From assembly GCF_037975245.1 (NCBI RefSeq), contig NC_092577.1, positions 15,028,013-15,092,012 on the forward strand: 64,000 bases of DNA, given 5' to 3'. The stretch comes from Apostichopus japonicus (Eukaryota; Echinodermata; Holothuroidea; Aspidochirotida; Stichopodidae). The translations under genes were made by a program, and so were the position numbers. The notes under the pieces are model-generated. The model was not told the DNA's origin. It did not search any database and saw only the letters and a program-made list of their open reading frames with translations. Shown one piece after another: positions 12,557 to 18,500 of this stretch. Positions within the stretch are counted from its first letter, which is position 1; each line of letters begins with the position of its first letter.

Positions 12557-15500
12557 TTATTTCTCTGGCGAATCTTTTTTTCCATCTGCATCTTCGTTCT
12601 GACCACCTTGTGCGTTCATTTTAATCTCCCCAGTTCTGTTGTTGGCGGTCTATAAAGATGCAAAATTAATTATTTGAAAATAACATGCCATGTAGCAAGT
12701 TGTAGTGGATCTTTTGTAAAAATATAAATTCTTGTTAAGAAATAATTTAATTGACAAGCTGATAGTAAAATTATGTTGGCGACAATTTTTGTCACGTATA
12801 GTGGCCACATATTACCTTAGACCTCCATTAAAATACCATATGGATCTTGGACGTAATATTAAGCGGACATCAAACATACATACAAAATTCATTTCTTGAA
12901 ATATCGTGCTTAGACGGTTTTCACATTGTACTTCGTTTGTTTGTAATGACCTTTGACCTCAAGTGAAAGAACTAGGCGCTATTTACTCAATATGAGGAAT
13001 CTTCACATGATACTGTACATGTTCTCCATTAAAGTTTTATTGGGTTTGTATTTAAAAGATATATGCCCTATATGCCCTCGTTGTTCGGGGAATCAATATT
13101 TCAGAAATCCTTGGTGCAATTGTAGTATTTGCAGTGAAGAATATACATGCAGTGTAGGTTGGCAAACAAGGGAACTTTCAAAGTGCATACCGTTATGTCT
13201 TCGCCAGTTGGGTCACCATGGTTTCGTAGAGGTTGTGTGGTCACTACTATAATTTTCAATAACACCACTGCATTTATGAAGACTAGTCCCATCAGGCTTA
13301 AGTCCAATAAGGCAGACACAATCTAATAAATATCAAGGAAGACAAAAAGGTTTGCGAATCCTATACAGCGATGATAAAGCAAATCATTTCAATTGAGGTT
13401 GACTAGATGGCGTGGAGAAGAGAGTGACGAGGTGCAGTGTTAATATTTTACATTAAAGTGGCCATGACACGAAAATTTCAAAGTCCTATATTTTTGGGAT
13501 CCATCAAAGAATGTTTTCTAGAACATGTATCAACCAATCTGCCAGTTTAAAACTTGATTTTTCAAGTCGGAAATTGAGAATGAATTTACCCTCTTCGGCG
13601 TCTGAAACTTTGTTTACTCGAAAATTTTCTGATTCGAATGACGTCATGTGACGTCATGTTATGAACACGTTTGTTGTCGCTGCTTACGATCCTCCGAACA
13701 TACCATTCACGTACACATTAGACAAGTGCACATACCACTACACTCTTAATTTTTCCGGGTCACTTTTGTTACCCGGATTCCTGATAAAAAAAGTTTCATC
13801 CTTTTCAGGATAAGTTTAATCCATTCCCGGATAAAATTCAACCATTCCCGATTCAATTTCATTAGGCATGGTATCATTTCACTGTACCGTTCCTGATCAG
13901 AACGTAGCGCTTGATGCTATTGGCTGATGTACATCATGTGACAAAAGCTTTGATCGTGCTGCAGCTCTCGAACGAACGCTATTCGAACACATACGCCATC
14001 TTTTCGAAACTTTGCACTCACGAAATGCTCTTATGGATCTCGCAGAAGCAAAATTACTTCAATGGGGATCGGAGAAATACGTCAAGAATTTCAAAGGTGA
14101 GTTATTAGGCACTTTCCATTTCGTTTGTTGTGTTAATCATACGCAATAAAGTTAGTGCTTTGAAGAAGCTATGCTCAATCCGTCACGGGTTTAGTCTGGC
14201 CTAGCGTTATACAGTGTACACTATAGTGTGTAGCGTGTGTTGTGAAAACTATAAACGCTTCAGACTGTACTGTACAGTATACTACAGTACTGTACATGCC
14301 TACACACAACAGTATGCAGTACTATTGTGAAGCCTCTATGGTGCTACAGGGCAAACAGTATTACTGTATGGTGGGTTCTAATGTTCAGTTGCTACTTCAC
14401 CACAAAGTGGATTGTAATTTTTCGATAACCAAATGAATTAAATGACATAAGTAAGGCAGGCAAGGTCTAATAAGGGTTCCTGGTAATTTAGATTTAGGTA
14501 ATGTAAGACTTGCCCACAGTGGGAATCAGTCTTTCCCTTATATGTTCTATATAAGGTGATCATTTACAAATAAGGCATAGGCCTATATGCTACTGTAGTG
14601 TTGTGGTTGGACTGGGCCCAGTAGTGGAGTGTACTGAACTGTACTTTTGCGTTGAAATGAAAACAACACTGATTTTTCGTACTTTTTTTTAATCAATATT
14701 TAAATAAGTTTCTGCAAAAGAAAAAAACAGATGGTAAAGTCGTCATTAATACATATACATTTAATACAATACGTAATACAAATACATTTGTAGGCTAGTG
14801 TCCATAGGCTCATGGTATTGTGTAATAGTACAGTCGACGCTTGAAGTAGCGGTTCCGCGAATATTTCAGGTATACCCGGTTATACCGAGCAGGTATGCCG
14901 CTTTTTGTTAATGCTTATACCGATGCACCTTAGCATAAAGTTGCTTATGGTCTTGCCTAGTAATGGCAAAAAGAGGGGCAAAATAACACACTAAATGGTA
15001 TGCAGAAACTTCTTTGAATTCATTATACTGTTCATGGAAATAGATCATATAGTAGTTACTAAACAAAACACCGATCACAAGTGCGATATCAAATCAAAAT
15101 TTCCTGTGAAATGGCGGATCCAGAACCAATTGCGGCAACCGAAGTTCAAAGTGATAGTGGTTCTTCACCAGGCAGTGAAATTGGGCTATAATTAGAGTGC
15201 CCTTTCTCATATTCGAAGCAGAGAGTGAAGGCGGTGATCATGCCAATATTGAACCGAACGTTGAGGGTGGGCCTGAGGTGTTAGAACTGTATCAGTTCGA
15301 GCCTGTTAAACGAGCCGAAATTGAAGCTCCACAACATATCGAAGAAGAAACTCGTTCGAAACGATTGCAAGGAACATACAACGTGGTAAGAATTTATTAA
15401 CGAAGCATTTTAAAACAAAATTCAGTCCATTTTGTGCATGCGTTGTTGGAATTCGCGGAACCCCCTAAACCGTATTGTACAACCCACAAGGCATATGTGT

Positions 15501-18500
15501 TATTTCATACTCATTTTTACTAGGCTAGTACTTTGGCCTGGAGATTTGCAAATCAATTTTCTGAAACAAAGAATGTTTCATGATACATGGAAGGTGTAAA
15601 TTCACAACAAATGTAACCATAACTGTCATTGCATGCCTGCTTGTTATTGTGGACATCATGGGCCAACATTAATACAATTTTGAACTTTCATAATTTTTTT
15701 CCCAGGCAGTACAGCTACAAAGCCTACGGTCAACAGGTTCAATGGTACTGGGGATTCCTAGCAAGACACGTCAGGGTTGTGCTACCATTATGTGCAGTCC
15801 AAAGTATCAGAAGTGAGTTTCCAGCCAATGTTCATTACACTGGATTCAAGTTGCCAGGAGAAAACTCATTGTATAGGAAGCCTTGGTTGAGAAATTCCTC
15901 CAGAAACACCTTTTCTATTCTACGATTGTGTTGGATTATCAATCCGTCAGGGTTCCCTCAGTGTTGATATATTGAAATTCAAGACTTTTAATTCAGGATG
16001 AAATGGTTATTTTCCAGACCCAACATCAACAATGAAAGAAAAGGCATGTTTTGAAGCATTTGGACACAAGTATTGGCGTGACCGTGATGTCATATAATAA
16101 TATGTGCATAAGGGAAAGGGCATTGACCTTTTTAGGTGCATTTACCTCCCAGACATGTTTGCTTCGTACCTTTAATCTGGAAGCCAAAATATCCATATCA
16201 CCAATGATATTTGACATAAAGTCATACTAAAGACCAATGGAGGCAGCAGAACTCTTGAATGTTTAGACTTTGTTTCTTCAGCAGCAGTTGGTTTGTTTTA
16301 CAATATTTCTTCAGAAACTCAGCAGTACACCCTGTTAATGGTCTTCGATGTTTTAATGCGTGTGATGCTGTGTTTCACGTTGCCCGTCAGTGTTGTATGT
16401 GTCGTCGTGCGTGGGTTACATTTTTGCATGTGAGTTGCGTCGTGCAGTGTTTCTTGGTTTAAATTACCCTTTATTGTATTTGCTTCTGGATTATTCTATT
16501 AATTTGTCACAAAAACGATTTATAGAGATGGACATGCAACTGCTTTGTAGACTTAAAGCCAACAAAAACATGTCCGTTGTTTTTCTTTAAACCTCCTTTG
16601 ATGTCACAAATTACATTAGTGTAATTTAAGAATGATAATGTCTATGGAAAGTACAGTTTTACTTTTATGTCATATAATACAATGATTGTTGTTAATGTTA
16701 GTTTAGTCACAGGCTTGTTCAGATTGTCCAGAATGACTGTCTAGAACTGATATTGAATAAACTTTGTTCAATGATTTAAGACTTGAACTACGTTGTGTGA
16801 ATTTTAAACTTTAAACTTTAAACTTTAAAATAAATCGCTTTGAGATTTAAACACCCTTTGGCATAAAATCTTTTTACCTACCTATTTTGACCCATCCCCA
16901 TTACCCCCCACTCCCTCCCCAACATAAAAAATGGTTTTCCTGGAATAGGAATAAGAAATTATTGCTATAACTAACTGATCCAGCGTATTCCAGAAATAAA
17001 TTGGGGCACTGAGATTTTTCACAAGAAGATGTAACCCATCACTTCTGAAGCTAACCTCATAGCTTATTAGTATACAATAGAGCAATGAAGGGGGTGTTAA
17101 TTTAGATGACACAGCAAAATCTCTTCGTCTATTGCGACTTCAGTGTAGTAACGCTAATACTAGTACTACTTGTGCTCGGCGTGCTACCTCCTAAGGATCA
17201 CCACTTGCCCCATTGGAGGTTTCCTGTTCCCCGATCTTGTCTTCAGAGTAGTTTTAATGTGGATTACTTGACAGAAGAACGACTCTTTTATGTCGAACCG
17301 TTAAAGTCAATTTGTTTTATTTCATGAAAAAGAAGAGATCGTAGTATGCTTCCGTGTAGTGTTCGCTTCATACGGAGCTGAATACTGGCTAGGCCCAGTG
17401 AAATCGGCGCTGGTGTTGTGCACTAACTTGGTCATAATCGCCGTGGTTTTTTTCGTCCTTCGGCCATCGATGAAGGCTTATTGCATGGGTTATGTTTTGT
17501 GCAGCCCCCAACAACACAACGGACCGGTATTTCTCTCGGATATTTTAAACATGTTGTAAAACAAACTTGAAAATTCTAACGATATAGCGTAATACAGTGG
17601 TTGTTCTCTCAGTGTAAATGTGCGTGTATGTGTGACGGTATGATTGTCGCGCATCCGGTACGTGCCTGGGCTTGGCACTTGTGTTCCTAACATGACGTCA
17701 TCATTGTCTTGTTTTGAAATCGCATTTTCAGATATTTATTTTCGGATGCGAATATTGAAACGTTAATTTCTAATTAGTCCTTGAGGTTTTCAAGGTGATG
17801 AGAATAGTTTTGAACATAGATTTTCTCATAGATTCCGGGGAAGTTACTCTCGATTAGTTGGATTTTTCGTGTCATGGCCTCTTTAATATAATTACTGCTG
17901 GACAGTATACCACCTAACTCCAGCAAATGAATCATTTAAATATCAATTATACTGAGGGACAATACTCTAACCATTTCAATAACCTTTTAACCTAATAACG
18001 TATACTGGCATTTAAATACAATCATTATATTAAACATGTTTTATAATTACTCTTAGTCGTTCACAACGGCCCAGTCTGCTCAAGTCAATGATGGTAACAA
18101 TAAGAGTTAACACGACAACCACAGAGGAGAGGACGGGAATCCAAAGAGTCGCGTGCCACTGTTATGCAAATGAAAGAGAAGGTGTCTATGTTTGTTTTGT
18201 TGTTCAAAATATCGGCATGCATGTAGTTTTCCATTGTGATTACAAAAGGGTTAAACATAGATATACCGTAATGAACTGGACTTAATACCAGATGTATGCA
18301 TTTGATTCCTTATTTAAACAATAGTGAACAATTTGTTTCATCGTTTAAACCTTGTATCCCCCGTAAAACTTACTTCCAATGGGTGTATTTGTTTCTTTGT
18401 TTAAAAATAGATTTACTCTAAAGAACTTAATACCAGATATATGCATTTGGTTACTTTATTTAACTCTATTGAACTTAACAACAGCTGCATCAATTTGTTT

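Follow-up and report, generated by a model that had tools for sequence, protein, structure and literature searches.

A TTAA-flanked element of Apostichopus japonicus with a P2X7 ballast-domain remnant is most likely a non-autonomous Kolobok transposon

Introduction

Why does part of the P2X7 receptor's ballast domain lie inside a TTAA-edged element in the genome of the holothurian Apostichopus japonicus? The question is raised by a locus on contig NC_092577.1 (assembly GCF_037975245.1), of which a stretch of 64,000 nucleotides, here called the window, was analysed (positions 15,028,013 to 15,092,012; C17:15028013-15092012 in our searches, which covered 671.6 Mb in 35 contigs). An initial annotation of the sequence had marked a 4.4-kb element at window positions 13457..17882 and had proposed that the ballast-like exons within it were either carried along by the transposon or part of the transposon's own protein.

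According to Kojima & Bao (2022; PMC9587614), the Kol0 lineage of Kolobok transposons encodes a transposase together with KolX, the homologue of the P2X7 ballast domain; P2X7 itself, in their account, arose via fusion with KolX. The same authors give TTAA and 5′-RR/YY-3′ termini for Kolobok, the termini setting it apart from piggyBac, and they state that the place of stand-alone ballast proteins in Kolobok had previously been unremarked. Stand-alone ballast (nanor-like ZCD) proteins were described by Rump et al. (2020; PMC7016195), whose account gives one or few (<10) such genes per species.

We conclude, with a probability of a little under nine in ten, that this is a Kolobok transposon of a non-autonomous kind, which most probably belongs to the Kol0 lineage, has no transposase and carries a decayed KolX remnant. 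Direct support comes from its ends, the TTAA sites, the large number of copies, the presence of the last KolX exon in them and the absence of a transposase match inside the element, and further from longer KolX genes at other loci of this genome, which are arranged tail-to-tail with a Kolobok-type transposase.

Results

The element at 13457-17882 is a DNA transposon whose ends match as inverted repeats and are adjoined by TTAA on both sides, which bears out the borders of the initial annotation. The left TTAA target-site duplication (13453..13456) is followed by a left terminal inverted repeat with a 5′-AG start (13457..13481, + strand), which is identical at 22 of 25 positions to the reverse-complemented right terminal repeat (17858..17882, − strand); the latter ends with CT-3′ and is followed by the right TTAA (17883..17886). 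The two repeats read AGTGGCCATGACACGAAAATTTCAA and AGAGGCCATGACACGAAAAATCCAA (short form of the element ends, AGTGGCCATGACACG / AGAGGCCATGACACG; terminal repeat sequence of the family, AGWGGCCATGACACG), and with the flanks included the inverted repeat amounts to 34 nt at 88%. Further inward, at 193 bases from the left end and 183 bases from the right end, begins another inverted repeat, TGACGTCATGTTANGAACAC. Its left copy, TGACGTCATGTTATGAACAC, from element base 193 (13649..13668, + strand), matches its partner (17681..17700, − strand) at 95% over 20 nt. Among the 41,131 pairs of TTAA sites in the window with a spacing of 300-10,000 bases, the pair of the element was the only one with 14 of the first 15 bases matching, and the runner-up, again one pair only, had 13 of 15. 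With AG...CT, the termini have the 5′-RR...YY-3′ form of Kolobok.

When the left 244 bases of the element were used as a query against the genome, 340 candidates were obtained, and all 40 that were scored, including the window copy, showed at least 95% identity. The exact 23-mer consisting of TTAA and the end, TTAAAGWGGCCATGACACGAAAA, occurred 352 times (179 + 173), and its reversed control did not occur at all. Pairing was based on the first 100 of the 352 end places, which yielded at least 33 facing pairs, each of one T-type and one A-type end, and 34 unpaired ends. The length was 3106-3213 bp for 28 of the 33 pairs, and 1439, 3713, 3847, 4707 and 4810 bp for the others. Twenty copies, picked from the best left-end matches, were fetched. 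Both ends were present in 17 of these, at lengths of 3106-3254 bp, and each of the 17 displayed the TTAA duplication typical of Kolobok on both sides, as does the window copy. The 250-base flanks of different copies showed no similarity at E 1e-5. Mutual identity of the two-ended copies was 95.2-99.8%, with a mean of 98.4%, and their identity to the window copy was lower (94.6-95.1%). We therefore infer that the family spread fairly recently and that the window copy is older or belongs to a side branch.

The 4.4 kb of the initial annotation is correct for the span, the element proper being only ~3.1 kb long. The extra length of the window copy comes from a nested 1309-bp piece of another transposon (13741..15049, + strand), with TA on both sides. 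These 1309 bases were missing from all 20 fetched copies. Elsewhere in the genome, 23 places besides the window matched all or nearly all of the insert (40 of 106 candidates scored). In the 11 other insert copies that were inspected, the left flanks differed, the Kolobok family sequence was absent and the sequence continued rightward in every case, and TA preceded the left end in eight of them. The insert represents the left portion of an unrelated, high-copy transposon family that begins CACTCTTAATTTTTCCGGGTCAC (window 13741-15049; L042-L052); its copy L050 contains a long TTTA repeat. A SAM-like start had been suggested as part of the P2X7-like gene, and this suggestion has to be dropped: the open reading frame presumed to be meant (13928-14149) belongs to the insert, which has other flanks elsewhere, and gave no match in a Pfam search.

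The protein reading of the window that ends in HYTGFKLPG was confirmed as P2RX7_C. Specifically, the open reading frame at 15623-15967 matched Pfam PF20478 (P2RX7_C) with an E value of 2.1e-6 and 28.2 bits (cut-off 23.5), and the match of this last KolX exon (15706..15860, + strand) spans profile positions 145-192 of 192, the final quarter and C-terminal part of the ballast domain. Three longer KolX-like proteins of the same genome matched the last exon in tblastn searches with E values of 2e-7 to 9e-9, their matches in the element being restricted to their C-terminal part. Compared with solved P2X7, the last exon alone gave a weak match (E 0.072), and the longer KolX-like protein of locus L053 gave an E value of 1.5e-23. 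In a Pfam scan of five open reading frames of the element, P2RX7_C in the last exon was the sole match, and no P2X channel domain was found among them. Thus, the ballast-like exons proposed initially were recovered as regards the last one, and the others among the five frames remained without a family match.

Upstream of the last exon lie a possible first KolX exon (15111..15191, + strand), which on direct reading encodes 26 residues followed by a stop, and a second putative exon with a GT donor after it (15204..15385, + strand). The segment 15204-15388 had no Pfam match in the window copy or in copy L030. It is present in all 20 fetched copies (partially in L029), and the last-exon segment is present in 19 of the 20 (partially in L037); in copy L024, similarity to the element is lost ahead of the last exon. 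The small upstream open reading frame of the P2X7-like gene terminates in a stop, and the family majority sequence has a TGA inside the last exon, where the window copy has TGG. The P2X7-like gene is broken both in the window element and in the family majority sequence, and KolX is encoded here as a broken remnant only. The seven conserved zinc-binding cysteines of KolX were not found in the element by tblastn with the three longer KolX proteins. Copy L030 contains a cysteine-rich reading (947-1132), in a stretch that is missing from the window copy, which was considered as the lost zinc-binding exon and rejected: it had no Pfam match, did not align with the KolX of L053 and matched the KolX of L054 only at chance level (E 0.66 over 6 residues).

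Conceivably, the exon and the ends could be unconnected sequences that are neighbours by chance. We scored 150 of 541 exon candidates and looked for ends around the 40 matches listed on contigs C1-C8. A correctly oriented exact 23-mer end at the right distance accompanied 25 of these 40 exon matches; the other 15 lacked it, as would be expected for unrelated neighbours, and the 1439-bp facing pair likewise contains no listed P2RX7_C match. Seven of the 15, however, are part of an old set with 76-78% identity, and three other members of this set that were read (on C19, C20 and C12) all start at element base 3 and carry the left 1.8 kb of the element at 82-83%. In addition, some of the 150 scored P2RX7_C matches fall within facing pairs, at least 18 of the 33 pairs having one; this number is a lower bound because C8:24675769 (L028) and C6:11864981 (L023) carry the exon without a listed match. 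Together with the 19 of 20 copies that were fetched via the left end and hold the exon segment, this pairing contradicts the idea of a chance association, to which we assign practically no weight. Exons without an exact end, which would have spoken against the initial annotation, thus made up a minority of the exon matches listed, about half of them from the old set.

The old element copy, 82-83% identical to the family over the left 1.8 kb, turns up repeatedly in clusters, predominantly on a single strand, at a spacing of ~160-240 kb that widens in parts of C12 and C22. Several clusters are near contig ends. They were seen at C19:31.27-32.39 Mb, C20:0.24-1.21 Mb and C4:29.07-29.52 and 10.34-10.91 Mb, and further on C11, C14, C21, C12 and C22, with old copies read at L062, L063 and L064. 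Those of L062 and L063 lack the right side, and the two loci are 99.4% alike across the fetched 5 kb. The old copy appears to be carried within a very large tandem repeat unit, which is perhaps subtelomeric.

A genome search with P2RX7_C gave 471 candidates, and all 150 that were scored were above the Pfam cut-off, many of them being broken copies. No P2RX7_C match was obtained in 14 control genomes, a weak control if these are, as supposed, non-animal. The best 32 matches had E values of up to 2e-16, and 18 of them had no internal stop, although some are near-identical duplicates and not all are independent. We read 10 kb around each of three of these matches, at loci with longer KolX genes (L053-L055), and in all three a transposase was located tail-to-tail on the opposite strand; it is fragmented in L054 and interrupted by stops in L055. 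The transposase of L053 (P0001; 508 amino acids in the locus) matched PF20700, a Mutator-like transposase, with an E value of 1.8e-7. It reads GDGRTD...VVTD...DVWH...NLESFH, in which we take the residues to form a DDE triad with a C/DxxH motif. A genome search with this transposase gave 98 matches (85 of 296 candidates scored), and ~0.19% of the genome lies within 10 kb of a listed match. A Kolobok-type transposase was present within 10 kb of 26 of the best 32 P2RX7_C matches, in convergent orientation in all 26 and with gaps of 468-7111 bases. Two further sets of near-identical pairs of KolX and transposase genes, L058/L059 and L060/L061, have transposase frames of 548-550 amino acids without stops. 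Within each set, the loci are 98.7-99.8% alike across the whole 6.5-7.5 kb fetched, and their element borders are not readable because the likeness covers the entire fetched stretch.

These data bear on the possibility that the element captured a fragment of a host P2X7-like gene by chance (transduplication), so that the domain would not be the transposon's own. The element's lack of a transposase and the incompleteness of its KolX would suit such an event. By contrast, the fixed convergent layout that joins 26 of the best 32 P2RX7_C matches to a transposase argues that KolX is native to transposons, and Kojima & Bao (PMC9587614) likewise treat it as such. We therefore regard transduplication as very improbable. 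With the exon in 19 of 20 copies, the proposal that the domain belongs to the transposon's own protein has gained support.

A second alternative concerns the superfamily. The TTAA on both sides and the restriction of the KolX remnant to the C-terminal part would also suit a piggyBac family with a KolX-like C-terminal protein, and such families are mentioned by Kojima & Bao (PMC9587614). The AG/CT termini, however, are those given for Kolobok as opposed to piggyBac, the remnant retains the ballast cysteine of LPLC / LPSC, and the transposase beside KolX elsewhere in the genome is of the PF20700 Mutator-like type, although it was not shown to be the element family's own. A piggyBac origin thus appears unlikely.

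The intact transposase envisaged initially was not encountered inside the element. Neither the window element nor the family majority sequence was matched in tblastn searches with three transposases, one near-complete and two partial (best E in the element 0.62), and the right half (15968..17680) contains no recognisable coding sequence; by analogy, this would be the part in which Kol0 elements carry the convergent transposase. The five scanned open reading frames of the element had no transposase match in Pfam, with no piggyBac model run on the small frames individually. Loci L002-L040 (L002-L020 being partial loci) also gave no match, and neither did the incomplete copies L024, L037 and L038. 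Since no match to a Kolobok transposase, with its DDD/E residues and C/DxxH between the second D and the last E, was obtained, the element is not autonomous.

Among the other features of the window, tandem repeats of ~161 and ~150 bp lie directly to the right of the element (18329-19438). Exons of a secretin-family seven-transmembrane (7TM) receptor are located at 38487-40875 on the − strand (PF00002; E 2e-9 and 5e-10), and a weak Calx-beta match under the Pfam cut-off is found at 62832-63197 on the same strand.

Discussion

Several observations weigh against assigning the element to Kol0 Kolobok. None of the copies read, which included some of the 33 facing pairs from 100 of the 352 end places, combined these ends with a transposase. 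The long copies were considered as autonomous partners and rejected: the two longest pairs, of 4707 and 4810 bp, contain additional sequence, in which no transposase was matched. In six KolX/transposase loci (L054, L055 and L058-L061), no clear TTAA inverted repeats were seen around the genes, in a comparison without a shuffled control. The ends of the element are absent from L053-L055; L053 begins inside the transposase, so that its left side lies outside the locus and TTAA repeats are not assessable there. Six of the best 32 P2RX7_C matches had no transposase within 10 kb at the sensitivity of the search, and at one of them, C17:16725225 (L054), a diverged transposase was found by tblastn. 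The underlying searches scored 40 of 340 left-end, 150 of 471 P2RX7_C and 85 of 296 transposase candidates. The link to Kol0 thus rests on the KolX homology, the TTAA sites and the termini rather than on a shared transposase.

By comparison with other members of the superfamily, a Kolobok transposase encoded elsewhere would recognise the terminal and subterminal repeats in trans, excise the element and insert it at TTAA. The KolX remnant would be a passenger, and the window copy would later have been hit by the other transposon. There is a slim chance that the KolX-derived stretch is more than a passenger and was kept in the recent burst of copies since it helps movement in cis, for instance through binding or spacing, or gives a short ballast-like peptide that modulates a KolX/transposase complex.

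The element shares with Kol0 Kolobok the TTAA duplication, the 5′-RR/YY-3′ termini, a KolX with ballast domain and the presence of transposase and KolX pairs in the same genome; it differs in that no transposase was found for the family, KolX is broken and the length is ~3.2 kb. KolobokP is also a TTAA-flanked Kolobok, but its terminal direct repeats of ~450 or 660 bp are absent here, the longest direct repeat at 12900-18400 being 38 nt. The piggyBac families with a KolX-like C-terminal protein (PMC9587614) have in common with the element the TTAA and a ballast-like remnant, and differ from it in that its termini are AG/CT. The homology to P2X7 and the nanor-like ZCD proteins concerns the C-terminal ballast part (P2RX7_C); the present sequence is not a receptor, and the genome holds at least 150 matches as compared with the <10 genes per species in the account of Rump et al. 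(PMC7016195).

The finding is real but in large part known: the family is new, of a known kind, and that the ballast tail belongs to such transposons has been in print since 2022. Our results provide a genome-scale check of the published claim that the P2X7 ballast domain is a transposon protein. Such copies may be annotated as 'P2X purinoceptor 7-like' genes. That P2X7-domain matches are numerous in this genome, with most of the best ones beside a Kolobok-type transposase, calls for caution in gene annotation.

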